Virus record (IMG/VR): IMGVR_UViG_3300025840_000116 | Span: 1-34,270 of that record | Reading direction: 5' to 3' (one strand) | Length of the DNA: 34,270 bases | DNA from: a virus | Shown: positions 5,013-32,916 of the stretch, one piece after another | Position numbering within the stretch: position 1 is the first letter of the stretch | Layout: every line of letters begins with the position of its first letter | Translations under genes and position numbers: made by a program | The notes under the pieces: model-generated | Database searches by the model: none | What the model was told of the DNA's origin: nothing | The model's input: only the letters and a program-made list of their open reading frames with translations

Positions 5013-5903
5013 CTATTTTCCTATTGCGTTACCGTATATGTGTACGTGAACTCTGCTTGTATAATTGTAGCCACGTTGTATGGCTTCGTCGGCTATACTT
5101 GCCTCTGTTTGTACTAGGCCTTCAAAGGTGCCGCCAACTCCCATAATCCATACAGGGAAGTCGCAACCGGCATCTCTAAATGCTTTAGTGTGTTCTTCTA
5201 CTTCTCTCCAACTTTCATCTGTGCCATTTACCACATACTTCAATTGACCATGTGGACTTACTTCAGCATATCTGCCTATTACTTCTGGCTTGATTGCTTT
5301 CTTGTTCTTCTCACCAGCAGTACTCCACAGTTTAGGACTTAAACTCCAGTACCATTCAGAACCATTAGCCCATGCTGGATATTCACGTTGTATGTATTCA
5401 GCAAACTCGTCTGTAATAGGCTTTGTGCCATTTGTTTCCACAGTAACATTCATAGGTTGATTGTTTCTGCGTTTAAATTCTTCTATAACTTGCATCATAC
5501 CAGGCTGTGTGTTTTTAAGCATTGGCTCGCCGCCTGTAAAGACCATGTGTGCGTTTTGTTGTGTAACTGGGTGTACAAACTTACCATGCGGTAGTAGTGC
5601 TGTAAGTTCGTCTACAGCCTCGTCTACAGTCTTATCAGTAATCAAATGCTTATATTTCTTGCTCCAAGTATAACTGCTGTCACAACCTTTTTCAAACACA
5701 GGCAAATCAAATACATTAGTAATGTCTGTGATATCTAACTTCTCATATGGTAAATCATATGTGCTAGGATCAGTAGGATCGCTTTGACCAAAACCATTAC
5801 ATTGTAAATTGCATAGGAAGAATCTCATCCACAGACTAGGGATACCTACATACTGGCCTTCCCCTTGTGCTGAATAAAATGTTTCGCTATACTTTAATGT
5901 CAT
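5013..5903 (-). CDS. queE: QueE-like 7-carboxy-7-deazaguanine synthase
   Basis: A 296-residue radical-SAM enzyme of the QueE type, which converts 6-carboxytetrahydropterin to 7-carboxy-7-deazaguanine (CDG) in the preQ0 pathway. The N-terminus has the QueE signature YSAQGEGQYVGIPSLWMRF. The cluster Cys are unusual: C31 and C35 are spaced normally, but the third, C74 in GCDSSYTW (QueE usually has WCDT), comes after a 38-residue gap. Downstream are HMVFTGGEP (SAM-binding GGEP), VTVETNGT and WYWSLSPKL, all QueE-like. The start forms a TAATG overlap with folE, so the two are co-translated. Function as CDG synthase is strongly supported by context; the Cys loop is discussed in the findings. Confidence 0.92.
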   Translation of the reverse strand: MTLKYSETFYSAQGEGQYVGIPSLWMRFFLCNLQCNGFGQSDPTDPSTYDLPYEKLDITDITNVFDLPVFEKGCDSSYTWSKKYKHLITDKTVDEAVDELTALLPHGKFVHPVTQQNAHMVFTGGEPMLKNTQPGMMQVIEEFKRRNNQPMNVTVETNGTKPITDEFAEYIQREYPAWANGSEWYWSLSPKLWSTAGEKNKKAIKPEVIGRYAEVSPHGQLKYVVNGTDESWREVEEHTKAFRDAGCDFPVWIMGVGGTFEGLVQTEASIADEAIQRGYNYTSRVHVHIYGNAIGK

Positions 5904-6592
5904 TACTTATCGCAAGAATATTGTTGTTGTAATTTGATGTTGTCCATAAACTCTTTCTTTGTACCTGCGTCATCTTTGAACGCACCTTTAAGAACAGTTG
6001 TTTGTGTAAGACTGCTATGTGCCTTAACACCTCTGTTCTCTACACAACCGTGTGTGGCTTGTACATAAACACCTAAGTGATCGGCACCAGTTGCCTTTTG
6101 TATTTCTCTAACAATGTCGTTAGCAAGTTCTTCTTGTAGTGTACCTCTACTCGCACACCATTGTGCGATTCTTGTGTACTTGCTTAATCCAATTAGTTTG
6201 TCTGCGGCAATAATACCAATGTATGCTACACCTCTAACAATCTGGTGATGATGTGAACACATACTTGTAAGTTCACTACGCACAACCAACATGCCTTCGT
6301 ATCTATCTTCGCTGTCATTAGGGAAAGCAGTAGCGGCTGGTATAGTTTCATACCTACCACTCATTAGTTCGTTGATATACATCTTAGCAAGGCGTCTGCC
6401 TGTACCGTTGCTGTTAGGATCGTTCTCAGTATCAATAACAAGACCTTGCAAGACATCTTCAAACTTAACTGCAAGTTCGTCAATCAGTTGTTCTTTCTCA
6501 CCTTCTTTAATATGTGCTGAGATATTATCTCCTGCCCAAAACCTATCGCCGGCTTCCTGTAGCCTTTGTTTAATTGTATCACTAACTGCCAT
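5903..6592 (-). CDS. folE: GTP cyclohydrolase I
   Basis: A 229-residue FolE, which opens GTP to give 7,8-dihydroneopterin triphosphate, the first step toward both folate and 7-deazaguanines. The zinc ligands are visible: C112 and H115 in SMCSHHHQ, and C183 in THGCVENRG. Also present are GLSKYTRIAQWCASRGTLQE (135-154) and a normal family C-terminus (KAHSSLTQT). Ribosome site AAGGAG precedes ATG 6590-6592. It overlaps the coiled-coil gene upstream by 11 bases and queE downstream by 1. A cluster of folE, queE and (elsewhere) queD and dpdA in one phage points to DNA modification rather than folate supply. Confidence 0.96.
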   Translation of the reverse strand: MAVSDTIKQRLQEAGDRFWAGDNISAHIKEGEKEQLIDELAVKFEDVLQGLVIDTENDPNSNGTGRRLAKMYINELMSGRYETIPAATAFPNDSEDRYEGMLVVRSELTSMCSHHHQIVRGVAYIGIIAADKLIGLSKYTRIAQWCASRGTLQEELANDIVREIQKATGADHLGVYVQATHGCVENRGVKAHSSLTQTTVLKGAFKDDAGTKKEFMDNIKLQQQYSCDK

Positions 6593-6782
6593 CTTCTAAC
6601 TCCTTAATTTGTTCCTTCAGTTCTTCAATTTCTCTTTTAAGATTAAGTTTTTCAATCTTTTCGTTTGCTAATGCTGTATCATCCATATGATGATCGTAAT
6701 CATCAGCAATTTTTTTATCTAACTCTCTGTGTCTTGTTTCTAAGACTTTAAGATGATTGCTCAGGCTTTTTAATGTACTCAT
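6582..6782 (-). CDS. DUF465/SlyX-like coiled-coil protein
   Basis: A 66-residue, almost entirely helical, highly charged protein. The pattern HLKVLETRHRELDKKIADDY, then KIEKLNLKREIEELKEQIK, matches the short DUF465 (YdcH-like) proteins: H-x-x-LD-x-x-I followed by a KL-x-LKxEI helix. Members are small bacterial proteins of unknown role, also found in phages. ATG 6780-6782 lies inside the previous gene (35-base overlap). Confidence 0.8.
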   Translation of the reverse strand: MSTLKSLSNHLKVLETRHRELDKKIADDYDHHMDDTALANEKIEKLNLKREIEELKEQIKELEDGS

Positions 6783-6942
6783 TGTCGTCCCTCAAAATTC
6801 CATTTTCCCAATTCTCTGCTACGTCTTGTGCATAGTGAATTGATTTATCTCTAACATCAATCTTACCAAATGCATTACCGTTCTTTAACAGATGTACTAT
6901 ATAACCAGTACCATCAATGTTTACTATTTCTGCTGTTCTCAT
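6748..6942 (-). CDS. Hypothetical protein, 64 residues
   Basis: Start chosen at ATG 6940-6942, which overlaps the stop of the phosphoribosyltransferase gene as ATGA and has GGAG upstream; in-frame GTG codons 6 and 9 bases earlier are less likely. The protein begins MRTAEIVNIDGTGYIVHLLK, a small beta-hairpin-like start, then an amphipathic helix (SIHYAQDVAENWENGIL). No known motif. Confidence 0.8.
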   Translation of the reverse strand: MRTAEIVNIDGTGYIVHLLKNGNAFGKIDVRDKSIHYAQDVAENWENGILRDDNEYIKKPEQSS

Positions 6943-7427
6943 CTCCACCACTCCTCATACGGAAACACTATCCAACGTTCTTGATCTGGTAATACATTAT
7001 TAGCAGTAAATTCAACGTTATTAAAACTACTAGATTCTTTATCAAACAATGTAGAAAACATAATATCTTGATGTGCATGTTGCATCATGTTGCTATTATC
7101 TGCTACATAGTTTCTGATAACATTGTCAATACCTTGTAGTGTTGTTCCTGTATCATTAATATCATCTACGACTAAAACACGTTTATCATTGTATTTAGAT
7201 AAAATGTGTCTTAATGTCTCTGAATCTTCGATTGCTCCGTCTCTTGTTTGCCATCTGAATGCTTCGAATGGCACTTCGAAGTAATGACTCATCATTACTC
7301 CAAACGGATATGCTCCTCTACCGGGACCAATAATAACTTCAGGCTTGTAACTTTCGTGTGCCATTTCTCGCACAATAATTCTACAATCTCTGTTTAAATC
7401 GTCCCAACTATAATATAGTTTTTCCAT
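6939..7427 (-). CDS. Purine-type phosphoribosyltransferase
   Basis: A 162-residue type I PRTase. The PRPP loop VLVVDDINDTGTTL (84-97) has the two Asp (D88, D89) and GTT that bind PRPP. An upstream loop IIGPGRGAYPFG (32-43) supplies the diphosphate-binding PPi loop, and the C-terminal WIVFPYEEWW is like the end of hypoxanthine/xanthine PRTases (Gpt/Hpt type). It would join a purine base to PRPP. It is the first gene of the folE-queE operon; whether it acts on normal purines or on a deazapurine is unknown. The sigma70 -10 box (7434-7439) lies 6 bases upstream of the ATG and there is no ribosome site, so its mRNA may be leaderless. Confidence 0.88.
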   Translation of the reverse strand: MEKLYYSWDDLNRDCRIIVREMAHESYKPEVIIGPGRGAYPFGVMMSHYFEVPFEAFRWQTRDGAIEDSETLRHILSKYNDKRVLVVDDINDTGTTLQGIDNVIRNYVADNSNMMQHAHQDIMFSTLFDKESSSFNNVEFTANNVLPDQERWIVFPYEEWWR

Positions 7428-7433
7428 GCTTTT

Positions 7434-7462
7434 ATTATACCACTTTTTCTGGTTGAAGTCAA
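7434..7462 (-). promoter_or_regulatory. Sigma70-type early promoter, leaderless arrangement
   Basis: Minus strand: AGG then TTGACT (7457-7462), 17-base spacer, TATAAT (7434-7439). The -10 is followed by 6 bases (AAAAGC) and then ATG 7425-7427, so the usual start 7 bases after the -10 would be the A of ATG. The -35 nearly touches the stop codon of the upstream gene (7464). Confidence 0.88.
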
Positions 7463-7463
7463 C

Positions 7464-8036
7464 CTATCTTTCAAAATCATTTTCTAATAGGATAAATTCT
7501 ACTTTATCAAAATCATTTAAGTTAATTTTAGCGGCTTCTTCAACTATGTTTCTCTTAGTAAACTCTAAAAACAATTTAAGTTCTTTATAGAAACCAGCAT
7601 CTAATACAGGATTTAACACATCGCTATCTCCTGATATATTATATGTTTCGTCAAGTAACTTATTGCTTAGTTTTAAAACAACACCAAATGTCATTTTAAG
7701 ACCGTCTGCCAGCATATCATCAAAGTCAGTTAGTTTCTTATATTTAAAAATATATCTGTTTAACATTCTTAAGTAAAATTCTGCAGATATCTCGTCAAGT
7801 TGCACTGATATTTTATCAGTATCAAATTCAACTGCTTTAAACACAGATAAATGACTTTGGTCAAAATCTACGTTATTGCAAAAGAAATGTATAACATCTA
7901 TTATTTCCTTGTCGGTTATAGGAAATTTCTTTTTAATTAAATTTAACTCATCGCCTTTACCGATCGCACCCACAACTGCCATAACTGGGGTGCCTGTTCT
8001 ATTAATAACATTTACAGATTTACGTTTTCCTATCAT
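7464..8036 (-). CDS. Hypothetical protein, 190 residues
   Basis: ATG 8034-8036 overlaps the stop of the epimerase gene as ATGA. The protein starts MIGKRKSVNVINRTGTPVMA with a short hydrophobic turn (AVVGAIGKG), then is mostly helical and acidic, with long Leu/Ile/Lys-rich segments (FYKELKLFLEFTKRNIVEEA). No catalytic motif or membrane segment. It is the last gene of the transcript starting at 13360. Function unknown. Confidence 0.85.
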   Translation of the reverse strand: MIGKRKSVNVINRTGTPVMAVVGAIGKGDELNLIKKKFPITDKEIIDVIHFFCNNVDFDQSHLSVFKAVEFDTDKISVQLDEISAEFYLRMLNRYIFKYKKLTDFDDMLADGLKMTFGVVLKLSNKLLDETYNISGDSDVLNPVLDAGFYKELKLFLEFTKRNIVEEAAKINLNDFDKVEFILLENDFER

Positions 8037-9028
8037 TTATTCTTAATAACCTTATTTTTATTGTCTACCCAAAACTTAGAATGTGCAAACATATCATCTA
8101 ATGAATATGTTGGTTCCCAATCTAATAATGTTTTGGCTTTAGAAATATCTCCACATAAGTACGATGGGTCTCCTGCTCTTCTAGGACCTACTTCATATTT
8201 TAAACTTTTTCCAACAACGTTTTGTGCTGAAATTATTAAATCATGAATACTAAATCCTGTACCAGAGCCTAAGTTTACAATACCACTTTCACCGTCATTG
8301 CTTAAATGCTCTACTGCTTTTAGTTTAGCATTTGCTATGTCTTGTATATGACAGTAATCTCTAATGCAAGTACCGTCTTTAGTATCGTAATCATCGCCAC
8401 AAATATTAAATACCTCGTCATTTGTAATTTTATCAATAATGATAGGCATTACATGAGTTGCTGGTTCTTGTGTATAACCATTTTTACCTTCTGGGTCTGC
8501 ACCAGCGGCATTAAAATATCTTGTACTGATATAATTTAACCCGTATGCTTTGCTGTAATCTTCTAACATAAGTTCTGTCATGTACTTACTCATTGCATAC
8601 GGACTCATTGGCATTGGTGTAAGAGTCTCAGCAAATGGTTCTCTGCTTTCTCTTTCACCATACACACTACTAGAACCGCTAAAGATAAAGTTCTTAACTC
8701 CTGCTTTAACACACATATCTAGTAATGTTTGAGTACCTGACACATTATTTTTATAATACTTGCCAGGATCAATTATACTATCAGGAACAACATGGCTTGC
8801 CGCTAAATGAATAACCGCTTGTGGTTTCATCATTTCTAATATGCCTGCCGTAGTTGTAGCCTGAAATTCATGTGGAAATAAAGTAGCACCTTCTGGTAAT
8901 GCCCACTTCCTACTCGTATTGGAATCTATAACAATTACGTCATATCCATTGTTAGCAAAAGTTTTACTTACCTGTGCACCAATAAAACCAAGACCACCTG
9001 TAATAACAACTGTTGGTTTATCACTCAT
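8033..9028 (-). CDS. galE: UDP-glucose 4-epimerase-like protein (GalE family)
   Basis: A 331-residue extended short-chain dehydrogenase/reductase. NAD-binding G11-x2-G14-x2-G17 in ITGGLGFIGAQ; catalytic Ser in SGSSSVYG (117-124) and the pair Y144-x3-K148 in SPYAMSKY; RYFNAAGADPEG and the C-terminal GSGTGFSIHDL and RRAGDPSYL blocks are all GalE hallmarks. It would interconvert UDP-Glc and UDP-Gal (or the N-acetyl forms). It lies in the accessory operon with a glycosyltransferase and two sulfotransferase-like genes, which suggests supply of sugars for glycan decoration. The exact sugar cannot be read from sequence. Confidence 0.92.
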   Translation of the reverse strand: MSDKPTVVITGGLGFIGAQVSKTFANNGYDVIVIDSNTSRKWALPEGATLFPHEFQATTTAGILEMMKPQAVIHLAASHVVPDSIIDPGKYYKNNVSGTQTLLDMCVKAGVKNFIFSGSSSVYGERESREPFAETLTPMPMSPYAMSKYMTELMLEDYSKAYGLNYISTRYFNAAGADPEGKNGYTQEPATHVMPIIIDKITNDEVFNICGDDYDTKDGTCIRDYCHIQDIANAKLKAVEHLSNDGESGIVNLGSGTGFSIHDLIISAQNVVGKSLKYEVGPRRAGDPSYLCGDISKAKTLLDWEPTYSLDDMFAHSKFWVDNKNKVIKNK

Positions 9029-9185
9029 CTTTATTTTCCTCCTTTGGATCTAGTAATCCTCCCCAATCTTCTACCTCATCAACAACATCTGTTAAAGATC
9101 CTGCTGGTTTGGAGTTAGTAGGTTGAATTACTGTTTCCTTGTTTCCTCTCTTTTCAGTGAAAGGAATACGTTTAATGTTAGGCAT
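9021..9185 (-). CDS. Small hypothetical protein, 54 residues
   Basis: The frame is open to 9209, but ATG 9183-9185 is the better start: it overlaps the end of the previous gene (stop at 9178) and gives MPNIKRIPFTEKRGNKE. The rest is polar and acidic (DVVDEVEDWGGLLDPKEENKD), likely unstructured with a short linear motif around EDWGGLLD. It overlaps the epimerase start by 8 bases. Function unknown. Confidence 0.75.
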   Translation of the reverse strand: MPNIKRIPFTEKRGNKETVIQPTNSKPAGSLTDVVDEVEDWGGLLDPKEENKDE

Positions 9186-9360
9186 TATTTTTTGCGTCTT
9201 GAATCTCACCTCTTCTAACTTTCGCTAGTTTAGTAATTTCCATTAATGCCTTCCTTGCTCTTGTTGCCGATGCTTTTACGCCTTGGCCTTCTTTAAATTT
9301 TTCGTTTTCACTTACATACTCTTCAAAGAGTGCTTTGATTTTTAAATGTGTCTCTGTCAT
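9178..9360 (-). CDS. Histone Hc1-like small basic protein
   Basis: A 60-residue helical protein starting at ATG 9358-9360 with ribosome site TAGGAGA. The segment VKASATRARKALMEITKLAK followed by VRRGEIQ resembles the conserved part of bacterial histone H1-like Hc1 proteins (basic helix with RxRKALxxxxKLAK..R). Those proteins bind DNA without sequence preference. It could compact or coat phage or host DNA. Because it is short, homology is suggestive rather than secure. Confidence 0.8.
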   Translation of the reverse strand: MTETHLKIKALFEEYVSENEKFKEGQGVKASATRARKALMEITKLAKVRRGEIQDAKNNA

Positions 9361-9369
9361 AATTATCTC

Positions 9370-9960
9370 CTATATGTTTTTAAATTGTACAGATTTAATT
9401 AAATCGTAATCGGCTCTATATGCCTGCCTAACTACTGATTCATTAACGTTATTAACAATATCTATTGATTGCATCAAACGTTTTGTTGCGTCAATGTTGA
9501 AACCATATTCATCATTGATTTGATTATAAATATTTTTGTTATAATAAAAATAATCTATGATAGGATTGGCATTATATTTTTTTATAATGTCAAACATATC
9601 AATTAAGAAACTTTTTTGTGGCTTAAAATGTGCATCGTTAGATTCTAAATAAAATCCTTCATCACTAAAATTAAAAGTAACATAGTTTGTCTGAGGTTCT
9701 ACTTCTCTCCAACCTAAATACATATTAACAGTACTGATAAATCTTTCTATTGGATCTCTTAATATCACAATAAACCTACTTGGGCATTTTTCTTCTTCCC
9801 ATAATGTAATTCTAGTCCAGTCGTTGTTTGTTTTTTCAAAATCTCTAATTACACTTGTAGCACATTTAGGTACTAACAAGAATGCAATGTCCTCTTTTTT
9901 GTTGTATACACAATCACCTGGCATACAATTTGTATATTTGTTATCAATTGATGTTTCCAT
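9370..9960 (-). CDS. Sulfotransferase-like protein (copy B)
   Basis: A 196-residue protein with both PAPS-binding elements of sulfotransferases: the 5' phosphosulfate loop LLVPKCATSVIRDF (28-41, K32 and S36) and the 3' phosphate motif RFIVILRDPIERFIS (62-76, R68 and S76). These enzymes move sulfate from PAPS to sugars or other acceptors. It is about a third shorter than typical carbohydrate sulfotransferases but keeps both motifs. It is a paralogue of the gene directly upstream: both share the RDPxERFIS(A/T)VNMYL block and a SNDAHF block about 35 residues later. It overlaps that gene by 17 bases. Base composition looks more AT-rich than neighbours. Confidence 0.85.
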   Translation of the reverse strand: METSIDNKYTNCMPGDCVYNKKEDIAFLLVPKCATSVIRDFEKTNNDWTRITLWEEEKCPSRFIVILRDPIERFISTVNMYLGWREVEPQTNYVTFNFSDEGFYLESNDAHFKPQKSFLIDMFDIIKKYNANPIIDYFYYNKNIYNQINDEYGFNIDATKRLMQSIDIVNNVNESVVRQAYRADYDLIKSVQFKNI

Positions 9961-10519
9961 TGTCTACCTTATTAACAAACTTAACAGAATCAATTAACTC
10001 ATAATCTTTTACATAGACATCTTTGATAATGTCAATGTCAACACTTTTTATTATTTTACTAAATCGATTTATGTAATTTTGCTCCATATTTAAATCATAA
10101 AAATCATTTAAATCATTGATTATATTATTGTTTAGCCAAAAGAAATCAATTTTACTTTTATCTAAACCCTCAATAAAAGTATTTTGCGAAAAAAAGTGGG
10201 CATCGTTGCTTTTAAATATACTATATTTGTTATCCTCTTTTCTAATATCTACATAATTAGATGTAATCGTTCTAGGGTGCAAATACATATTTACAGCACT
10301 TATAAATCGTTCTACTGGATCTCTTAATATTACACAAAATTTATCTATAGTAAAATCTTTTAAAATTATTTCGGTTTTATTAGTAATTGGTTTTAATGCA
10401 CGTTTTATTGACGAAGAAGCATTTTTTGGTAAATGTAAAATACCAAGATTATTTCTTTCTATATAAGCACCGCTGTATAGCGGATGTATAGAACCATTAA
10501 TACCAATTACACTATTCAT
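9944..10519 (-). CDS. Sulfotransferase-like protein (copy A)
   Basis: A 191-residue paralogue of the next gene. The 5' loop is ILHLPKNASSSIKRAL (27-42, K32, S35-S37) and the 3' motif is FCVILRDPVERFISAVNMYL (61-80, R66 and S74). SNDAHFFSQNTFI follows. The start ATG 10517-10519 overlaps the QueD-like stop as ATGA, so it is translated after it. Very AT-rich with many Asn, Ile and Lys. The acceptor is unknown; host lipopolysaccharide, a virion glycan or a small molecule are all possible. Confidence 0.85.
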   Translation of the reverse strand: MNSVIGINGSIHPLYSGAYIERNNLGILHLPKNASSSIKRALKPITNKTEIILKDFTIDKFCVILRDPVERFISAVNMYLHPRTITSNYVDIRKEDNKYSIFKSNDAHFFSQNTFIEGLDKSKIDFFWLNNNIINDLNDFYDLNMEQNYINRFSKIIKSVDIDIIKDVYVKDYELIDSVKFVNKVDNGNIN

Positions 10520-10953
10520 TTCAACAAATTATCAAATACATCGTCTATTGCGTCTGTATCTCCAAAGTATGGACCATCCACATCTTCTAATGGATACTCC
10601 ATTTCGCAACCGTTTTCATTATCTTCGGCTACTGAAATCTTTATGTAACGACCAGGATATTTGTCCTGTATCGTTTCTGCTAAGTCATCTGCTATCATTT
10701 CGCATGACTTAAAATCAAGTTGAAGAATAGCATCTCTATACTGATTCTCCAACCATCTCTTAAATTGTATGAATTCAATGTCTCTGTCATCATGAAACAC
10801 CTCAATCCACACTTTAAAGTGGAATGTGTGTCTATGAGGATAACCTAGAAAACTAACGTCATACTCGTCGCCAGTTGCTAGATTAGGATCTTCTAATGCC
10901 GCAGGATACTTATGTATACCTTCTTTACTAAATGTTACCCAAATACTTCTCAT
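10516..10953 (-). CDS. queD: QueD-like 6-pyruvoyl/6-carboxytetrahydropterin synthase homologue
   Basis: A 145-residue T-fold protein. GIHKYPA (12-18) and PHRHTFHFKVWIEV (39-52) hold the three His expected to bind zinc (H14, H40, H42); FIQFKRWLE matches the family DF-x-x-LK block; SCEMIADDLAETI and ISVAEDNENGCEMEY match the later family motifs including the substrate-binding Glu. The catalytic Cys that QueD places about 4 residues before the HxH is absent. QueD makes 6-carboxytetrahydropterin, the substrate of QueE, so the gene links folE and queE. Ribosome site AAGGAG precedes ATG 10951-10953. Family assignment is good; activity is uncertain because of the missing Cys. Confidence 0.8.
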   Translation of the reverse strand: MRSIWVTFSKEGIHKYPAALEDPNLATGDEYDVSFLGYPHRHTFHFKVWIEVFHDDRDIEFIQFKRWLENQYRDAILQLDFKSCEMIADDLAETIQDKYPGRYIKISVAEDNENGCEMEYPLEDVDGPYFGDTDAIDDVFDNLLK

Positions 10954-10963
10954 ACAATACTCC

Positions 10964-11161
10964 TTATACTATATTTGTTGCCTGTGGTCCTTTCGCACCT
11001 TGCTCAACATCAAATGTTACTTCTTGGTTCTCTGATAGAGATTTATATCCCTCACCTTGTATTGCTGTATGATGTGCAAACACATCTTTACTGCCATCGT
11101 CTGGTGTGATAAATCCAAAACCTTTGCTGGTATCAAACCATTTTACTTTTCCTGTCGCCAT
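10964..11161 (-). CDS. Cold-shock domain protein (CspA family)
   Basis: A 65-residue, full-length cold-shock protein: [20 protein letters not shown] carries RNP1 (KGFGFI) and DVFAHHTAI carries RNP2 (VFAHH). Such proteins bind single-stranded RNA or DNA and melt structure. Ribosome site GAGGAA precedes ATG 11159-11161. It lies between the outer-membrane gene and queD. Csp proteins occur in several marine phages, where they may aid translation of structured mRNA. Confidence 0.95.
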
Positions 11162-11174
11162 TCTTTCTTCCTCG

Positions 11175-11270
11175 TTATGAAGTATTACCTTCGTTGTTTA
11201 ATTCTAAAGGTACTTCCTTCAAAACTACATGTCCAATTGGACTATGTTCTTTAATTAATATTATTACCAC
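11175..11270 (-). CDS. Possible 31-residue small protein
   Basis: A GTG at 11268-11270 overlaps the end of the outer-membrane gene and opens a frame to TAA 11175-11177: about 31 codons ([20 protein letters not shown] and then ELNNEGNTS). AGG sits about 6 bases upstream. It would fill the 102-base gap between two genes. The short length and GTG start make it tentative; otherwise the gap holds no other feature. Confidence 0.3.
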
Positions 11271-11926
11271 TTAACACCTATTGTAACACTTAATACATTA
11301 TTGTTAACCGGGTCTTCAGTGTATGTATTACTAAATCCCAGCGACACTTTATCATTTAAACTGTAATTGATTGCTGTTTCATTACGCAAATATGTATCTG
11401 TTCCAGTTTCATTAAGTAGTTTGTTGGTAATATTTAAACTGTCATTTAGTTTATAAAATATCCATAAACTATTTCTAAGTATTGCTTCGTCCACTTCATC
11501 AGTAGTTAAGTATGCAACTGACGTTTCGTGACTTATTTTCCAATTGTCATTTCTAAAAACTTTTATACCAAGGCCACCACCAGTTACTATTCTATCTCCA
11601 GATGCTCTTAATTTATCACTGTCATAACTTGTTACACTGAATGCATAATACTTAGATGTGATGTCTTTATTTGCTTTACCAATTATGCTAAACTTATCCA
11701 TTTTAACTACATCTTCTTGTTCTTTGTAAACATAGTCAGTTTCAACTACATAGTCAATAATAGGATTATCCCACTCGTGATCTACACTGAATTTTAATGT
11801 AGTTGTATCACTATTAATCTGTGTCCAACCAAACTTGGCATTGCCTGTTGCATTTGCTGGTAACGTTATCAGCAATAATCCTATTGCTAAAATAAAAAAT
11901 AATACAGCCTTTTTAATGTTACTCAT
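11264..11926 (-). CDS. Outer-membrane beta-barrel protein, DUF481-like
   Basis: A 220-residue protein with a signal peptide (residues 5-27, AVLFFILAIGLLLITLPANA, cleavage after ANA) and a mature part made of alternating beta strands with aromatic ends. The C-terminal [10 protein letters not shown] ends in a Trp, the sorting signal of Gram-negative outer-membrane barrels. The pattern of short strands (LKFSVDHEW, YYAFSVTSYD, SVAYLTTDEV, NETAINYSL, VSLGFSNTY) fits DUF481 (YdiY-like) proteins. It follows a one-span membrane protein with which it overlaps by 4 bases. Likely inserted in the host outer membrane during infection. Confidence 0.85.
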   Translation of the reverse strand: MSNIKKAVLFFILAIGLLLITLPANATGNAKFGWTQINSDTTTLKFSVDHEWDNPIIDYVVETDYVYKEQEDVVKMDKFSIIGKANKDITSKYYAFSVTSYDSDKLRASGDRIVTGGGLGIKVFRNDNWKISHETSVAYLTTDEVDEAILRNSLWIFYKLNDSLNITNKLLNETGTDTYLRNETAINYSLNDKVSLGFSNTYTEDPVNNNVLSVTIGVKW

Positions 11927-12123
11927 TGTGAATCCCTTCTTAATACTTCTTGTCTAGTAGTACCCATTTCTTTTAATTTTTCATCTATATCAAAGTCATA
12001 ATATTCGCCAGTATACTTTCTTAGAATACTTCTTTCACTTAACATAACACTACTAATCCAACAGCCATATGCCATGAAGCAAAGAAATACTATACCAAAT
12101 GCTATCTGGATAATCTCAATCAT
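11923..12123 (-). CDS. Single-span membrane protein, 66 residues
   Basis: One hydrophobic helix at residues 5-28 (IQIAFGIVFLCFMAYGCWIS), followed by a charged tail (SERSILRKYTGEYYDFDIDE). Its ATG overlaps the end of the glycosyltransferase gene (stop at 12116) by 8 bases, and it overlaps the outer-membrane gene start. Likely inner-membrane, with the tail on the cytoplasmic side by the positive-inside rule. Function unknown. Confidence 0.8.
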   Translation of the reverse strand: MIEIIQIAFGIVFLCFMAYGCWISSVMLSERSILRKYTGEYYDFDIDEKLKEMGTTRQEVLRRDSQ

Positions 12124-13339
12124 ATTTTGCCTTTGCTACTTGTCTTCTGTAATGCTGTCTGTCTCTTTGTTGCTCTAGACCTAAACCAGATATTACTTTA
12201 AGTGTTCTTTCTATTGTACCATTTTGATAATCGCTTATCTTACCTAAACTATATTCGCTTAGGTTATCTGTATTAATATCATCAAACATATTAGACAGTT
12301 TACTAATACAGTCTTCCATGCTCCAAGGAACGTACAAGTGTCTGCCATTGTTAGCAAACACTTCTGGGAAACTTCTATATGCTGGATATAATGTAAGTGT
12401 ACCTAATGTATCTGCTTCGCTTACTGTATTGCTTACCCAGTCTTGCAAGGCACAATTAAATAATACTTGACTGTCTGCTAGTAAGTTATAGTAATCGTTT
12501 TTCTTTAAGCCTGTGTAGATCTTAAAGTTAGCAGTATTGCCTGCTTGTAATTCTAATGCTCTATCAACATACTCTTGATCTGAACTTTTTAGTTCTGGGT
12601 GTCCACAAAATATAGCAAACTCAACTTCAGGATCTATTTTGTAATAGGCTTCTGCTAAGTCCATATAAAAGTGTGGTTGCTTCTCATCATCCCAACGTGC
12701 CGCAAAACCAACTCTCTTTGTTCTTTCTTTCAATGGCTTAGGATTAGGAACCCGCTCTTGTACTTCGCTTTTACCAAACGGCAAACCTGTTACATATATA
12801 GGCTTTTTAAATCCTGCTGTTCTTAAGTGTGCAACAAATTCTTCACTTGCTACACATATACCTGTAACAAATTCATCTACCATTTGCTCGTATCTACGCA
12901 TCCAATCAAACATGCCTTCTCTAATAAGGAAGTCATCTGGGTCTGTTGTTTGTGCTAAGAATCTTAAGAATACTTTAGGTCTGTATTCAGGTGGAGATTG
13001 ATCCATTATGTAAGGCAAACATTCTAAGCCTGGTGTAAACATATCTTCATAAAAGATAACATCATCGCTAGTAATTTCACCGTTCTTCATTTTCTGTACT
13101 AAGTTCATTGTTTGACTTAGACTGTAATAACTTCTACCATGTGCGTCTAACACACTACCTGTAACGATTGCTTTGCTGTTATCTAATTCTTCGCCTTCGA
13201 TAATTTCATAATCAATGCCATGCTCTTTAAAAACACGCTCGTTCCATTCTTGTAATTGTAATGTATACCTTGCTTCATAAGACTCTAGTCCCATGTAGAA
13301 CAGTTTACGCATGTTTATATCATAAACTCCATCACTCAT
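12116..13339 (-). CDS. GT-B glycosyltransferase (family 1-like)
   Basis: A 407-residue glycosyltransferase. The C-terminal half reads as the nucleotide-sugar domain of GT-B enzymes: VGFAARWDDEKQPHFYMDLA starts it, FAIFCGHPEL and FKIYTGLKKNDYYNLLADSQ follow, and NTVSEADTLGTLTLYPAYRS with FPEVF supplies the donor-binding E-x7 motif region. The N-terminal half (MRKLFYMGLESYEARYTLQL) is the acceptor domain. The first ATG has GGAGA upstream and a 17-spaced sigma70 promoter (13360-13388). The acceptor could be DNA (as for T4 glucosyltransferases), a virion protein or host surface; the sequence does not decide. It heads the operon that also codes for galE and queD. Confidence 0.85.
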   Translation of the reverse strand: MSDGVYDINMRKLFYMGLESYEARYTLQLQEWNERVFKEHGIDYEIIEGEELDNSKAIVTGSVLDAHGRSYYSLSQTMNLVQKMKNGEITSDDVIFYEDMFTPGLECLPYIMDQSPPEYRPKVFLRFLAQTTDPDDFLIREGMFDWMRRYEQMVDEFVTGICVASEEFVAHLRTAGFKKPIYVTGLPFGKSEVQERVPNPKPLKERTKRVGFAARWDDEKQPHFYMDLAEAYYKIDPEVEFAIFCGHPELKSSDQEYVDRALELQAGNTANFKIYTGLKKNDYYNLLADSQVLFNCALQDWVSNTVSEADTLGTLTLYPAYRSFPEVFANNGRHLYVPWSMEDCISKLSNMFDDINTDNLSEYSLGKISDYQNGTIERTLKVISGLGLEQQRDRQHYRRQVAKAKYD

Positions 13340-13359
13340 ATAGATTCTCCATAATGTTA

Positions 13360-13388
13360 ATTATATCATATTTTGTGGCCAATGTCAA
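13360..13388 (-). promoter_or_regulatory. Sigma70-type early promoter
   Basis: Minus strand: AGG then TTGACA (13383-13388), 17-base spacer, TATAAT (13360-13365), an almost perfect consensus. Predicted start near 13353, with a leader of only about 14 bases that holds GGAG before ATG 13339. It starts the glycosyltransferase-to-epimerase operon. Confidence 0.9.
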
Positions 13389-13390
13389 CC

Positions 13391-13918
13391 TCAATCTATC
13401 ACCTCGTCTTTGGTATATTTGGTCCAGTCTGTGAAAGCCTTCCTGTCTTGTAGTTCATGTAAACTATGACACCACACTCCTGGATTAGTTGCTTTAAAGT
13501 CTTTGTCATCTAGTTTGAGTGTCGCATTGTAATTGAATTGATTAATGTAAGGCAACTTAACACTTATCATTGGTATAAATGTACTATACTCAGTCCAACC
13601 ACATTCTAATACTTGTTCTGCTAAAGTTACATCAAAGTCTAGTGTAATCCAAATATCATCTTTTAAAAGACTTGTAACTAGTTTGTCCCACCCCTGCCAA
13701 TCTTTTTCAGTTGGTGGATTAAAACTTTGGTTAGCACCTAGATAAATGTGCGGACAACCGCTATTAAGTGCCCTAGCAAGTATTTCCTCTTTTGGTTGAT
13801 ACCCAACTACAAACAAAGTCTTTTGACTATAAGCAGGCGTATGCTCTACTTCAGTGCCTATAAAAAACTTTGTATCCTCGTGACCTTCTCTATTCATTAG
13901 TAACTCGTATAACCCCAC
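13391..13918 (-). CDS. Conserved phage protein of unknown function, 175 residues
   Basis: A soluble alpha/beta protein. Notable blocks: NREGHEDTKFFIGTEVEHTP, KTLFVVGYQPKEEIL, CPHIYLGANQSF, IWITLDFDVT, FIPMISVKLPYI and NPGVWCHSLHELQD. The mix of strands ending in Asp/Glu/His looks enzymatic, but I cannot name the fold. Two starts are possible: GTG 13918, or ATG 13895-13897, which forms a TAATG overlap with the previous stop. It lies downstream of dpdA in the same transcript, so a link to DNA modification is possible. Confidence 0.85.
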   Translation of the reverse strand: MGLYELLMNREGHEDTKFFIGTEVEHTPAYSQKTLFVVGYQPKEEILARALNSGCPHIYLGANQSFNPPTEKDWQGWDKLVTSLLKDDIWITLDFDVTLAEQVLECGWTEYSTFIPMISVKLPYINQFNYNATLKLDDKDFKATNPGVWCHSLHELQDRKAFTDWTKYTKDEVID

Positions 13919-14091
13919 TTAATTAATTGATCTTGATAATCTGCACCTTCATCAATGTTTACAACTTTAGTAGGTGTAGTTTTACCATCTTTAGTCTCTA
14001 GTATTTCCATTTCAGCACCATTCTCTAGTATATGAAATTGTACATCATGTCCTTCGTATGTGTATGTGCCACTGTATGCTTTATTCGCCAT
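13897..14091 (-). CDS. Small hypothetical protein, 64 residues
   Basis: ATG 14089-14091 overlaps the end of dpdA by 11 bases. The protein is MANKAYSGTYTYEGHDVQFH then EILETKDGKTTPTKVVNI and a helix (YQDQLIKWGYTSY): likely a small beta-sheet with a C-terminal helix. No known motif. Confidence 0.8.
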   Translation of the reverse strand: MANKAYSGTYTYEGHDVQFHILENGAEMEILETKDGKTTPTKVVNIDEGADYQDQLIKWGYTSY

Positions 14092-15622
14092 CGAAATCTG
14101 CCCTCATTATGTCTTCTTGCATATCTGCTTCACTGTCACCTGACTCGTATTCGTCAGTTTCAAATAAAGCACCAAATGTAGATTGTTCCGCACTACCATC
14201 TGAGAAACTAATCTCTTTTAAAAACTCTTTGTTATCTTCTAACATTTGCCTTGCATTTGTGTTATTAGGATCTAACACTTCTTCTGCAAAACTATCAAAC
14301 ATTAAAATAGTACCAGGTACATAAGGTGAAGTTTCATTGCTTACACTACTACCTTTTACCTTCTTCCAGTTCTTCCAATGTGTAGGTGTTCTATATTTTT
14401 CCATATCAGCAAGTCTATTTGCTTCTTGCGTTGCTGTAATATGATTATAAACACTATGACCCATGTAAAGAGCATAACTTAGTGTGTCCCAACTAGTTGT
14501 GCATTCTTTACCATTCCTGTTTGTATCTCCATGTCCTAAAACACAGATATCACCAACAGTTAGTCTACTCATTATAGGGGAATGTGCAAAAGGCATAGGC
14601 ATCTTTGATCCTTTCATGTCTTTGTTATCGAATGCTCTATCCATAAAGTATCCAAATCGCTTGGCTCTGTACTCATTATGTGTGTAAGTCTGGCCATATG
14701 CTGTATTAACAAAAGGCGATGCCGCATCAAATGAAAGTGTTATATTAGGATTGTCGTGCTTTCTCAACTGTCTTTGGATACTAGTGAGGTGACATGCCCA
14801 ATTAAGGCGTCCAGTACCTAAGAAGTGTATCCAATCCTTGCCTTCAAGTAAACCGTCTTCTCTAAGATCCAACAATCTACTTAGCACACTATACATGTGC
14901 TTCATATTGATACCAGCGAATGCGTAACCCTCTAAGGTTCTATTCTCATCACCGTATGCTTCTTGCACAAAACTTTTATTGGAAAAATGCTTTACTGCAT
15001 CATACCATATTTTGCTATTCTCTTCGTTACTACCACTTAACACATTTAAAAACTTAGTAGCACCTGGTGTTCTGTTCCTCATAAAATAGTCTAAATTAAG
15101 TAGACTGATATCTAGTGTGTCTTGAAATTCTGTAAGTCCTGTCCTTTCGCTTAGTTTACCAACTGCCGCAAAAGCAGGAACATCTAATGTCATACTCCAG
15201 TCTGCTGTATGCTCTAACCATGTAAGTATCTTATTACAAAATGCTGTTCTTACAGGATCATTAGGATCTTTAGCATTGCTCCAGTCCATTTTAATAACAC
15301 CTGTGGCAAGTTGGAAACCACCTGAGTCTCCTAGTATCATAGTTTTACTACGATCTCTACCTTGTATCATTGGCTCACGTTCATCGCTTTTAACAGGATC
15401 TAAGTGAGCATGTCCACCTGAGTAAAGACCCCATGGGTAATGATAATAACTGTTCTCAGGATCAAGGAAGTTCATACCTTGTGTGCCTTTTTCAAAGCCT
15501 TCAGGGCATCTCCATTCACTTGGATTAGCATCCATTTTCTGTAATTGCGTTACATAGAACCCACTAATGGCGGGCAGGTAAACTGCCCAATCCTGGTGCT
15601 TCTTTCCTAAATCTTCTGTCAT
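14081..15622 (-). CDS. dpdA: DpdA-type DNA guanine transglycosylase
   Basis: A 513-residue TGT-fold protein. The first active-site block ILGDSGGFQLATG (96-108, D99) matches the TGT (S)DSGGFQ motif; WSMTLDVPAFA (142-152) and LSFDAASPF (296-304, D299) match the second Asp region that forms the covalent bond with the nucleic acid. Such phage TGTs (DpdA) replace guanine in DNA by a 7-deazaguanine. Length and the insertions between motifs fit DpdA rather than bacterial tRNA-TGT (about 375 residues). I did not see the four zinc ligands of bacterial TGT. An acidic tail (residues 470-513) is extra. It follows the clamp gene by 2 bases, in the operon of the DNA polymerase. The other pathway genes (folE, queE, queD) are in two other operons. 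Confidence 0.88.
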   Translation of the reverse strand: MTEDLGKKHQDWAVYLPAISGFYVTQLQKMDANPSEWRCPEGFEKGTQGMNFLDPENSYYHYPWGLYSGGHAHLDPVKSDEREPMIQGRDRSKTMILGDSGGFQLATGVIKMDWSNAKDPNDPVRTAFCNKILTWLEHTADWSMTLDVPAFAAVGKLSERTGLTEFQDTLDISLLNLDYFMRNRTPGATKFLNVLSGSNEENSKIWYDAVKHFSNKSFVQEAYGDENRTLEGYAFAGINMKHMYSVLSRLLDLREDGLLEGKDWIHFLGTGRLNWACHLTSIQRQLRKHDNPNITLSFDAASPFVNTAYGQTYTHNEYRAKRFGYFMDRAFDNKDMKGSKMPMPFAHSPIMSRLTVGDICVLGHGDTNRNGKECTTSWDTLSYALYMGHSVYNHITATQEANRLADMEKYRTPTHWKNWKKVKGSSVSNETSPYVPGTILMFDSFAEEVLDPNNTNARQMLEDNKEFLKEISFSDGSAEQSTFGALFETDEYESGDSEADMQEDIMRADFDGE

Positions 15623-20457: not shown

Positions 20458-22539
20458 CTAACTTATGACTGCTCTGTCTGTTACTCTTCTCCAGTTAGTG
20501 CCATCACTAAATGCCATTACTGGACCCCCTGTGTCATTGGTTACATAAATCATATGCCCAATGTATGCAGATGCATCAGGTACTGATAGTACTGCATATC
20601 GTGGAAACTCAACTGGTCCTCCACTTGTTTCAACTACACCGTAATCACTATTTACTAATGCTACAACGGTATCAGTTAATAAACCGTAGTCGATTGTGTT
20701 TGTTGTTGAACTAGTAATCAATCCGTAATCGCTTACTGTTTCAAATATAGGCGATGATACAATACTTGCATCAACTTCACCGAATGTTAAATTGCCAGTA
20801 AGTTTCGCATCTATGGCACTATTTGCTCTAGCATCAGTGTAGTAAAGATTAGTTGAACCTTCTTTGATATCATCTGAATCTTGTGTTGCTAATACAGAAG
20901 TAACTCTAGCATCAGTGTAGTATAAATTTGTTGAACCTTCTGATAAATCGTCTGAATTGTTATCATCTAAATCAACTTTTACTCCACTTTCTGATTTTGT
21001 ATCTTTGGCTAATGCTTTTTGCTCAAACTTACCGCCTGCTCCTTTTCTCAAAACAACTTTGTCGTTGCCTGTTCCTAATTCAATTTCATCTACAACAAGT
21101 TTTCTTTTAATACTGGTGTTTGCACTATCTGAGAAATCTATTTCATTATCTGATGTCACACTAATTGCTGTTGTGCCTATATTGATAGTACTACCACTTA
21201 GGTATAAATCATTAAATCTGTTTGAACTTGTTCCTAAATCGTAAACTTCGTTTGCTGTGGGAACAATATTACCTGTTATGCTTACATCTTTTACACTGAA
21301 TGTGGTTCCTTGTTTTCTTGTAACCAATACCATGTCATTAGCAGTATATCCTGTATCAACACTGGATTGCTCACTGTTTACAACTGTATTCACAGTTACA
21401 TTGTCTTTTTGTGAACTGGCTCTTGGAATAACTTCCATATCAATTGTAACAGACCCATAAATTGTGCCTAATGTTTTGAATGCAAAAATAAATCCTGCTG
21501 TGGTTGTTTCTTTGGTCCACAGTTGAGGATCTATATATCTACCACCATTGTATTCTTCATCATAGGTTATAGTCCAGTCAAGGTCTGGTAATGTGTTACT
21601 TCTCAATGCGGCATTAAAATAAACTGTGTGAGTTTCACCAGCATTTTGAGCCGTCATACGACCAACCACTTGATAGTTCTGGCTGGCACCACTTGGTATA
21701 ATTGTTACTACTTTTTGATATTCACCATTACTAAAGTAACTACCATTTGAAGCACCAGTGTATCTCTGGTTAAACTTCATTATGTTTGAATTTTGGAATT
21801 CAACAGTATTGTATGTTGCTGTTCCTGTGATGCTTAAATCTGTAAATTCATTTGAGAATGTTAAGCCACCACTGCCATCAGTTTGTAAAAACTGTCCAGC
21901 AGTACCATCTGATGTTGGCATAGTGTAAGAGCCGTTTACAATTAGTGTGTTTGCTCTAACAACATTAGGTGCTCCATTGGGTGCTATACTTCCTGTTACA
22001 TTACCACTTAGGTTACCAACAAAAGCACCAGCACTAAATGTTTGACCATTAACTGTCCATTCGCCTTCATCTTCGTCCCAACGAAGGTACACATTACTTT
22101 CGTTACCTCTGTTTACTAATATTCCTGCGTTAGCAGTTGCGGGTTGGTTGGAAGGAAGGTCGCTGTTTAAAACTATTTCATTGTCAGCAATATTGAGAGT
22201 TTCTGTATTGATTATAGATTGAGTACCGTTTACAATTAAATTACCTGTTATGGTAACATCATTTGTAAACGTATTATCTGTATCGACTCTGGCAAAACTT
22301 GTACTATTGATACCATCTAGTGTATCAGCATCGCCTACAGTTAGTTTGCTCCATGCTACAGAACCTTCACTTACCGTTGCAATTTTTATTAGTGTATTGC
22401 TTGAATCGAACCAAAGATCACCTGTCGAGATATTATTGACGTCACTGGGTGCGTCAGATGTCCCGTACAGTCTAGAACCGCGTTTGCCTATTCTAAAACT
22501 GCTTTGCGAGGTACCTTTGGCATTCATTATGATTGCCAT
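20458..22539 (-). CDS. Fibre-like virion protein, 693 residues
   Basis: A repetitive, Thr/Ser/Asn-rich beta protein with no catalytic motif. Residues 97-165 contain the module VTITGNLIVNGTQSIINTE to YLRWDEDEGEW, also found in the 590-residue fibre at 25454. Near the C-terminus it has two copies of EGSTNLYYTDAR, a repeat common in phage tail fibres. A late promoter (22626-22633) lies 80 bases upstream and AGGAG-like TTGGAGA precedes the ATG. Likely a tail fibre or related virion decoration; the exact position in the particle cannot be read. Confidence 0.85.
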   Translation of the reverse strand: MAIIMNAKGTSQSSFRIGKRGSRLYGTSDAPSDVNNISTGDLWFDSSNTLIKIATVSEGSVAWSKLTVGDADTLDGINSTSFARVDTDNTFTNDVTITGNLIVNGTQSIINTETLNIADNEIVLNSDLPSNQPATANAGILVNRGNESNVYLRWDEDEGEWTVNGQTFSAGAFVGNLSGNVTGSIAPNGAPNVVRANTLIVNGSYTMPTSDGTAGQFLQTDGSGGLTFSNEFTDLSITGTATYNTVEFQNSNIMKFNQRYTGASNGSYFSNGEYQKVVTIIPSGASQNYQVVGRMTAQNAGETHTVYFNAALRSNTLPDLDWTITYDEEYNGGRYIDPQLWTKETTTAGFIFAFKTLGTIYGSVTIDMEVIPRASSQKDNVTVNTVVNSEQSSVDTGYTANDMVLVTRKQGTTFSVKDVSITGNIVPTANEVYDLGTSSNRFNDLYLSGSTINIGTTAISVTSDNEIDFSDSANTSIKRKLVVDEIELGTGNDKVVLRKGAGGKFEQKALAKDTKSESGVKVDLDDNNSDDLSEGSTNLYYTDARVTSVLATQDSDDIKEGSTNLYYTDARANSAIDAKLTGNLTFGEVDASIVSSPIFETVSDYGLITSSTTNTIDYGLLTDTVVALVNSDYGVVETSGGPVEFPRYAVLSVPDASAYIGHMIYVTNDTGGPVMAFSDGTNWRRVTDRAVIS

Positions 22540-32400: not shown

Positions 32401-32916
32401 TGTTTGTAATAATAAACTATGTTGTGAACTAAGTTCTACATCTGCGGCATCGTTTGAACTAATAACAAATCTTGTTTTAGAATCAAATCCTGCACTTTGA
32501 CTGTGTGTAGGATAGTTTGCGTTATTTAATACACCTGCGTATGCTGTGATATTAGCATTATCACCAAAGTTTCTACCTGAGAAGATATTTGTATTGCCAT
32601 TCACATTGTGAATGCTTAATGGTGTTGGTAGTGTATATGCTGTTGAGGAAACAGTAATAACGTTTGCAGATTCAGTTACAGTAGTTGCACCTGAGCCTTG
32701 TATCTTTTTAAAGTTTAATTGTGAACCGTCTTTTGCTGAGAATAAGCCTATTCCAGAAGCACCTACATTGCTACCACCTGTAACGGCGGCGTTTGCATCT
32801 GCAGAAACACTATCTTGTGCTACAAAAATTCCTTGCGTAGAATCGTAAACTAGGATCTGATTATCGGTGATCCCGTCTATATTAAAAGTTAAATTATCTC
32901 CTGTTACATTTGGCAT
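29401..32916 (-). CDS. Collagen-like tail-fibre protein, 1171 residues
   Basis: The largest gene. Residues 1-630 are beta modules with recurring blocks such as [20 protein letters not shown]...TITINNTG (about four variants) and the classic fibre repeat [20 protein letters not shown]. Residues about 634-990 (29945-31017) are nearly continuous Gly-X-Y triplets ([15 protein letters not shown]), broken by four copies of an STVA/SSVA four-residue insertion. Residues 991-1171 are a globular C-terminal domain ([18 protein letters not shown] to [10 protein letters not shown]), likely the tip. Late promoter 32948-32955. Collagen-like stalks form triple helices and trimeric fibres. Many Y-position lysines (GxKGE) are visible. 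Confidence 0.92.
29945..31017 (-). repeat. Gly-X-Y collagen-coding tract with internal DNA repeats
   Basis: About 357 codons of Gly-X-Y. Within it a 50-base identical segment occurs at 30401-30450 and 30503-30552, exactly 102 bases (34 codons) apart, coding for the same GADSTVAGP break and flanking triplets. This is the sort of repeat that grows and shrinks by recombination. Apparent plus-strand reading frames here are complement artefacts. Confidence 0.85.

Follow-up and report, generated by a model that had tools for sequence, protein, structure and literature searches.

Gene Content of the Candidate Module

The window analyzed here is the complete IMG/VR virus record IMGVR_UViG_3300025840_000116, which is 34,270 bases long and is classified as a linear fragment. 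On its minus strand lie the genes for FolE, QueE, a phosphoribosyltransferase (PRTase), a GalE-type epimerase, a T-fold protein related to QueD, a GT4-like glycosyltransferase (GT), a conserved 175-aa protein (h175) and DpdA, as listed in Table 1. They are treated here as a candidate module for a glycosylated 7-deazaguanine in DNA. A preliminary description of the window had named folE, queE, a queD-like gene and dpdA, and open reading frames are present at all four positions. It had also described the pathway as split over three operons and not forming one cluster, which is misleading, since all of these genes are on the minus strand and the same module genes are recurrent neighbors in related viruses. 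The T-fold/DpdA system is common among viruses: in one viral collection, each scan confirmed at least 580-595 relatives of either the T-fold gene or DpdA, the sets overlapping.

Table 1. Features of the putative module in the window and short DpdA-like proteins in related viral records.
Record	Feature	Position	Strand	Basis
Window	QueE, 7-carboxy-7-deazaguanine synthase (radical SAM)	5013..5903	-	PHROG 2076 "QueE-like", 9.8e-52
Window	FolE, GTP cyclohydrolase I	5903..6592	-	Pfam GTP_cyclohydroI, 3.7e-37
Window	Phosphoribosyltransferase (PRTase)	6939..7427	-	Pfam Pribosyltran, 3.3e-13
Window	GalE-type UDP-sugar 4-epimerase	8033..9028	-	NCBIfam galE, 322.3 bits (cut-off 262.3)
Window	Cys-less QueD-fold (T-fold) paralogue	10516..10953	-	AF2 model, Foldseek, VIA
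Window	GT4-like glycosyltransferase (GT), 407 aa	12116..13339	-	Weak Pfam Glycos_transf_1, homology, linkage
Window	h175, conserved 175-aa protein, neighbor of DpdA/GT	13391..13918	-	Conserved neighborhood
Window	DpdA, predicted TGT-fold guanine transglycosylase, long family, 513 aa	14081..15622	-	AF2 model, Foldseek, VIA
L104	Short DpdA-like protein	20795-21574		Motif
L109	Short DpdA-like protein	9417-10289		Motif
L110	Short DpdA-like protein	9686-10543		Motif
L112	Short DpdA-like protein	9749-10543		Motif

Conserved Residues and Predicted Folds

FolE, QueD and QueE are established as the enzymes that make 7-carboxy-7-deazaguanine (CDG), as set out in PMC13329287. The identities given earlier to folE and queE are borne out by their family matches and by their conserved residues. 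The CSHH and HGC metal-ligand residues of FolE are kept in 141-143 of 144 aligned proteins, while in QueE the cluster cysteines Cys31, Cys35 and Cys74 are kept in 75 of 76 and both T123-G124-G125 and E156 in 76 of 76. The second and third cluster cysteines of the window QueE (C35, C74) are separated by 38 residues; the usual spacing, CxxxCxxC, is far shorter. Matches to the window QueE occur in 187 of 50,697 phage records.

For DpdA, no match was obtained in Pfam, NCBIfam or PHROG at E 0.01 or among PDB sequences at E 1, and profile searches of the PDB likewise returned nothing significant. The same was true of the T-fold protein, whether a single sequence or a profile was searched against the PDB, where 2dj6 (PTPS) appeared at E 0.11. 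Comparison of folds was therefore needed for both proteins. The AlphaFold2 (AF2) model of DpdA, built from 60 aligned sequences, has a pLDDT of 90.8 and a pTM of 0.90. With Foldseek, six of the seven matches at E <= 0.001 are tRNA-guanine transglycosylases (TGT; best 1s38, 1.3e-4; TM by query for the TGTs 0.36-0.41), and the seventh is a designed enzyme. With VIA, TGT enzymes account for 50 of 50 among the matches listed (Z 17.6-18.9, rmsd 4.4-5.1). Furthermore, D99 (in DSGGFQ) and D299 (in SFDAASP), which by motif we take to be the two active-site aspartates of TGT/DpdA, are invariant across the 60 sequences, namely the window and 59 of 70 listed representatives. The model and its structural matches point to a TGT-fold guanine transglycosylase, in agreement with the dpdA assignment made earlier.

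At 1e-5, tblastn with the window DpdA matched 13 phage records, among which phage 9g (DpdA1) and phage nt-1 (DpdA2) were not found. In ACP17, X1 and BUCT-ZZ01 the DpdA belongs to a second family, which BLASTP does not join to the window DpdA. A third, short DpdA-like family (the type of gp042 in Cellulophaga phage phiST), with no Pfam match above cut-off, was assigned by motif and neighborhood. Its 259-290-aa proteins lie close after the T-fold gene, carry the motifs DNGAG/DNSxF and TDS/WDTSS, and look like a small DpdA-type family. In Rhizobium phage RHph_I1_18 (L107), genes for FolE, QueE, PTPS and the T-fold protein are present, and its genome pieces gave no match to the GT profile or to either DpdA profile (DPDA, DPDB).

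The AF2 model of the T-fold protein (pLDDT 89.4) is nearest to QueD/PTPS structures, with 4ntk (QueD) at E 2e-5 in Foldseek and Z of 12-13 in VIA; one VIA superposition gave Z 12.3 and rmsd 2.4 over 109 residues. Other T-folds were also matched, namely dihydroneopterin aldolase, QueF, uricase and GTP cyclohydrolase. Across 79 sequences (the window and 78 of 79 listed representatives), residues H14, H40, H42 and E110 do not vary. Three alignment scans with the T-fold protein gave 240 environmental loci, reduced to 195 non-redundant ones by identity of the last 90 residues of the frame. The catalytic cysteine of QueD, located four residues before the HxH/HxY motif, is missing in all 195 of these relatives, 190 of which have leucine there; the six aligned phage proteins of QueD type have it. 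Since hhalign against QueD aligned the C-terminal part only (probability 91), H14/H40/H42 are designated metal ligands, and L36 the cysteine position, by motif. The product of 10516-10953 thus has the QueD/PTPS fold, while its identity as QueD is rejected for want of the catalytic cysteine. Because the likely metal and base-anchoring residues are kept, the enzyme probably binds a pterin or CDG.

In the isolates, a separate match to the PTPS family is present alongside this paralogue. All 11 isolate records that carry the T-fold gene have another PTPS-family match, above cut-off in 10 and weak in D479, and in PA5oct two genes close to FolE are annotated as QueD-like, approximately 54 kb from its T-fold gene. 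In two records the T-fold domain forms the C-terminal part of a longer annotated protein (L108, 8215-9366, 383 aa; L112, 8395-9276, 293 aa).

Linkage of the Glycosyltransferase

The preliminary description had placed the queD-like gene among surface-chemistry genes. By linkage, however, the GT belongs to the deazaguanine module. In this GT, R207, K212 and E300, presumably the catalytic Arg, Lys and Glu of GT4 as judged by motif, are invariant in 29 sequences (28 of 29 listed representatives plus the window; a further alignment, A8, holds 26 of 40 plus the window). Two homologues exceed the cut-off of Pfam Glycos_transf_1 (X1, 45.5 bits; BUCT-ZZ01, 26.5), and those of ACP17 and PA5oct fall below it. 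Homologues adjoin or lie near the T-fold gene in PA5oct, Sinorhizobium phage Phosso, ACP17, X1 and Synechococcus phage BUCT-ZZ01. A profile of the family, run on the 11 isolates, gave one match each in five genomes, beside the T-fold gene, and no match in the other six; the unrelated 447-aa GT of BUCT-ZZ01 was not picked up.

Of the 195 environmental loci, 155 have a member of this GT family no more than 5-6 kb from the T-fold gene, always on the same strand (155/155), with a gap of 500 bases or less in 96 of the 155 and a median of 280. The long DpdA accompanies it at 126 loci and the second DpdA family at five, and at 24 loci the GT occurs in a stretch that none of the three DpdA profiles matched. 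No GT was found at any of the 31 loci with short DpdA-like genes. A further eight loci have a long or second DpdA with no GT, five of which have fewer than 900 bases left on the contig stretch, and one locus has neither DpdA nor GT. The GT thus goes with two DpdA families, which a BLASTP search with the window DpdA does not join to each other. Moreover, within the stretches covered, it is present in 19 of the 25 closest records. The T-fold gene itself occurs in all 16 large environmental records, 11 of which were fetched through DpdA only.

A common gene order is p247 (clamp-like), DpdA, h175, T-fold, GT, GalE and FolE, together with PRTase and QueE where the stretch reaches; the window differs in that the GT precedes the T-fold gene. 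h175, which has no family match in Pfam, NCBIfam or PHROG and no PDB sequence match, is present at 116 of 155 GT loci and at none of 31 short-DpdA loci, and also in ACP17 and, not adjacent, in PA5oct. PRTase matches were obtained at 53 of 155 GT loci and 10 of 31 short-DpdA loci, and in BUCT-ZZ01 an annotated XGPRT adjoins QueE. In the window, two adjacent sulfotransferase-like genes (9370-9960 and 9944-10519; Sulfotransfer_2, below cut-off) adjoin the T-fold gene. Such genes occur in 11 of 25 close records, and the 9944 gene in only seven of 155 GT loci. Elsewhere in the window, 29401-32916 encodes a 1171-aa protein with long collagen-like G-x-y repeats, probably of tail-fiber type.

The GT was also sought outside these loci. 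By tblastn, the window GT matched eight of 50,697 phage records, namely BUCT-ZZ01, ACP17 (twice), X1, Ep032 and PhiXhv-12, -15 and -16, in a search that was not exhaustive, as divergent members in PA5oct and Phosso were missed. The Ep032 and PhiXhv records have identical match figures and are counted as one lineage. QueE is present in the five distinct phages checked (BUCT-ZZ01, ACP17, X1, Ep032 and PhiXhv-12), and four Xanthomonas records carry QueE according to the search with the window QueE. In PhiXhv-12, genes for Gat-QueC (a QueC match at 2.3e-49 with a GATase domain), a PIG-L-type deacetylase, the GT (profile E 4.8e-31) and a MocA-type oxidoreductase stand in a row, and the stretch has no match to any DpdA or T-fold profile. 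The occurrence of the same GT family in this different, Gat-QueC route to a deazaguanine speaks for action of the GT on the deazaguanine product. The cluster (L557, 280-8707) also holds a GNAT protein and three unknown proteins, and possibly makes an even more elaborate deazaguanine.

Distribution of QueC

As described earlier, the window has no QueC: PF06508 is without a match in the 34,270-base record, a result that is uninformative on the whole genome because the record is a linear fragment. QueC was likewise not found with PF06508 in the complete genomes of PA5oct and Phosso, in which FolE, PTPS, QueE, the T-fold gene and DpdA are all present. Among the 11 isolate genomes with the T-fold gene, PF06508 matches two, D479 and X1; the X1 match is below cut-off and reads by eye as NAD-synthase-like, and was rejected as QueC. 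Of the 25 close environmental records five were matched, three above cut-off, and these were also rejected, as the three of the five sequences that were inspected look like a single NAD-synthase-like family (the L028 protein matches Pfam NAD_synthase at 1.4e-43 vs. QueC at 1.4e-4); the other two matches are in L026 and L027. The gene in question, found in L028 (982-1971), L029 (895-1902) and L030 (898-1881), might serve NAD replenishment. Matches were obtained in five of the 16 large environmental records, with three above cut-off (G026, G040 and G041), and no match to a custom QueC profile was obtained in the 195 non-redundant environmental T-fold stretches. Vibrio phage 2.275.O has a clear QueC by PF06508 and a DpdA match covering 43% of the query, and the T-fold gene was not found in it. 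Judged by these matches, the deazaguanine system appears mostly, though not always, to be without QueC. The 7-deazaguanine DNA-modification pathway proposed earlier is supported, with QueC usually missing in relatives.

Proposed Pathway and Its Alternatives

From the gene families, folds, conserved residues, linkage and frequent lack of QueC that are observed, we infer all reactions after CDG, the use of DNA as substrate and the placement of a sugar on the deazaguanine. FolE and QueE, together with a canonical QueD that is expected either in another part of the phage genome or from the host, would make CDG. The T-fold paralogue, in which the likely zinc and base-anchoring residues are kept, would act on CDG or a neighboring intermediate. 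Decarboxylation to 7-deazaguanine is the preferred guess for this step, prompted by the work of Cui in 2023, which is said to describe dCDG and dDG in phages and to predict a CDG decarboxylase, DpdL; we presume that the T-fold gene may be this DpdL. We know of no glycosyltransferase step for dCDG/dDG phages. The long DpdA would swap guanine in phage DNA for the deazaguanine base, the GT4-like enzyme would then add a sugar to the inserted base, and the bulky glycosylated base would be expected to hinder restriction enzymes. GalE may supply the sugar donor, which in some viruses might then have the galacto configuration, while PIG-L hints at a sugar derived from N-acetylglucosamine in PhiXhv. 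The PRTase possibly recycles the guanine released by DpdA. Should C7 be left without a substituent by the T-fold enzyme, attachment of the sugar through carbon is even conceivable. To this QueC-less module, in which CDG would be made, altered by the T-fold enzyme, inserted by DpdA and glycosylated by the GT, we assign a probability of roughly 0.48. Slightly more tentative is the wider proposal of a widespread, undescribed DNA hypermodification, in which a deazaguanine (CDG, 7-deazaguanine or, in PhiXhv-like phages, the product of Gat-QueC) would be inserted by DpdA and glycosylated by the GT4-like enzyme.

Several observations weigh against this proposal. The window GT itself reaches only 19.1 bits with Pfam Glycos_transf_1, below the cut-off of 26.4. 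Among the 139 loci with a long or second DpdA, eight are without the GT, three of which have room for it. The clamp-like p247, annotated as a sliding clamp in Phosso, is present at 115 of 155 GT loci vs. none of 31 short-DpdA loci; this contrast matches that of the module genes, and as the loci share common ancestry, lineage inflates the co-occurrence counts. The Fisher values assume independence among related loci and do not represent real levels of significance. The GalE matches (62 of 155 GT loci, none of 31 short-DpdA loci) may include related epimerases. A canonical PTPS was found in nine of the 16 large environmental records; it was not found in the other seven, possibly fragments, or in 22 close environmental relatives, also possibly fragments, where one sub-cut-off match overlaps the T-fold gene. 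As for QueC, a QueC-like protein with the zinc motif is present in D479 (one of 11 isolates), G028, G040 and G041 hold short proteins in which a zinc motif and a loop of the SGGxDS type were recognized by eye (the remaining matches in the large records are without the zinc motif by eye), and the Gat-QueC of PhiXhv-12 places QueC in a phage that has the GT.

One alternative is that the QueC-less route ends without a sugar, in dCDG or, after decarboxylation by the T-fold enzyme, in dDG, the GT serving something else. CDG had already been suggested for the QueC-less phage Bipper (Hutinet 2019, PMC6884629), and the T-fold gene occurs without the GT at every short-DpdA locus and in six of 11 isolates. 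The tight linkage of the GT to the long DpdA families and the T-fold gene, and its place in the Gat-QueC cluster of PhiXhv-12, make this alternative unlikely, although it is the strongest of those considered. Rather less probable is a QueC provided by the host or by a gene beyond the ends of the fragment, with preQ0 or one of its derivatives as the inserted base. In favor of this, the window is a fragment, D479 and about three of 16 large records hold QueC-like proteins, and host participation is discussed in PMC6884629; against this, PA5oct and Phosso are complete and have the rest of the pathway with no QueC, 10 of 11 isolates are without a QueC-like protein, and the conserved Cys-less enzyme with the QueD fold would have no role to play.

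That the GT and GalE are surface or glycoconjugate genes, located beside the pathway for other reasons, would accord with the weakly matching sulfotransferase-like genes that separate GalE from the T-fold gene in the window, and with the polysaccharide-type glycosyltransferases that are nearest to the GT profile in the PDB (E 0.004-0.02). It is nevertheless improbable to a high degree, as the pairing of GT and T-fold gene recurs in five isolate genomes, in which two DpdA families are represented, and the phages matched by tblastn are deazaguanine phages in every distinct case checked. Action of the transglycosylase on tRNA in place of DNA is scarcely to be expected, even though the predicted fold is that of tRNA-guanine transglycosylases: CxCxxC, the zinc motif of tRNA-type TGT enzymes, was not found in the window DpdA sequence, and dpdA adjoins the DNA polymerase gene. 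Phage DpdA enzymes assayed elsewhere act on DNA, according to PMC6884629. The preliminary description had left a choice between a QueC located elsewhere and the insertion of CDG itself. The QueC-less option fits the family better, if not all of its members, and "CDG itself" looks incomplete as an end product because the T-fold paralogue and the GT travel with DpdA.

Relation to Known Modifications and Implications

A glycosylated 7-deazaguanine that is made after base exchange is known from animal tRNA, as mannosyl- and galactosyl-queuosine, of which the proposed module might be regarded as a counterpart in DNA. The module would also resemble the system of T4, in which phage glycosyltransferases (alpha-GT, beta-GT) add sugar to a modified DNA base, hydroxymethylcytosine, after replication (PMC13216743); the base of T4, unlike the deazaguanine proposed here, is a pyrimidine. 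Deazaguanine in phage DNA and the protection that it gives against restriction enzymes are known (Hutinet 2019, PMC6884629). With the FolE-QueD-QueE-QueC-DpdA phage pathway set out there, the module has in common FolE, QueE, a TGT-like DpdA and the expected base exchange in DNA, and it differs in the lack of QueC in most relatives, the Cys-less T-fold paralogue and the linked GT. QueC-less deazaguanine DNA itself is anticipated in that 2019 source, where a phage with QueC alone missing was suggested to carry CDG, the substrate of QueC, as its base. In the case of Paride, a PAO1 phage related to PA5oct, the passages of PMC10761892 covered here report no DNA modification. Glycosylated 7-deazaguanine DNA was not found in the literature searched, a weak negative, as the main papers of 2023 and 2024 lie outside the portion covered, and its novelty is therefore provisional.

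If the proposed pathway is correct, sugars would join the known chemistry of 7-deazaguanine in DNA, and the T-fold paralogue and the GT, both of them unannotated families of phage proteins, would each gain a role. It would also explain how many phages may do without QueC. The cultured relatives Phosso, BUCT-ZZ01 and PA5oct/Paride, with phiST, which is without the GT, as a contrast, make the module directly testable.

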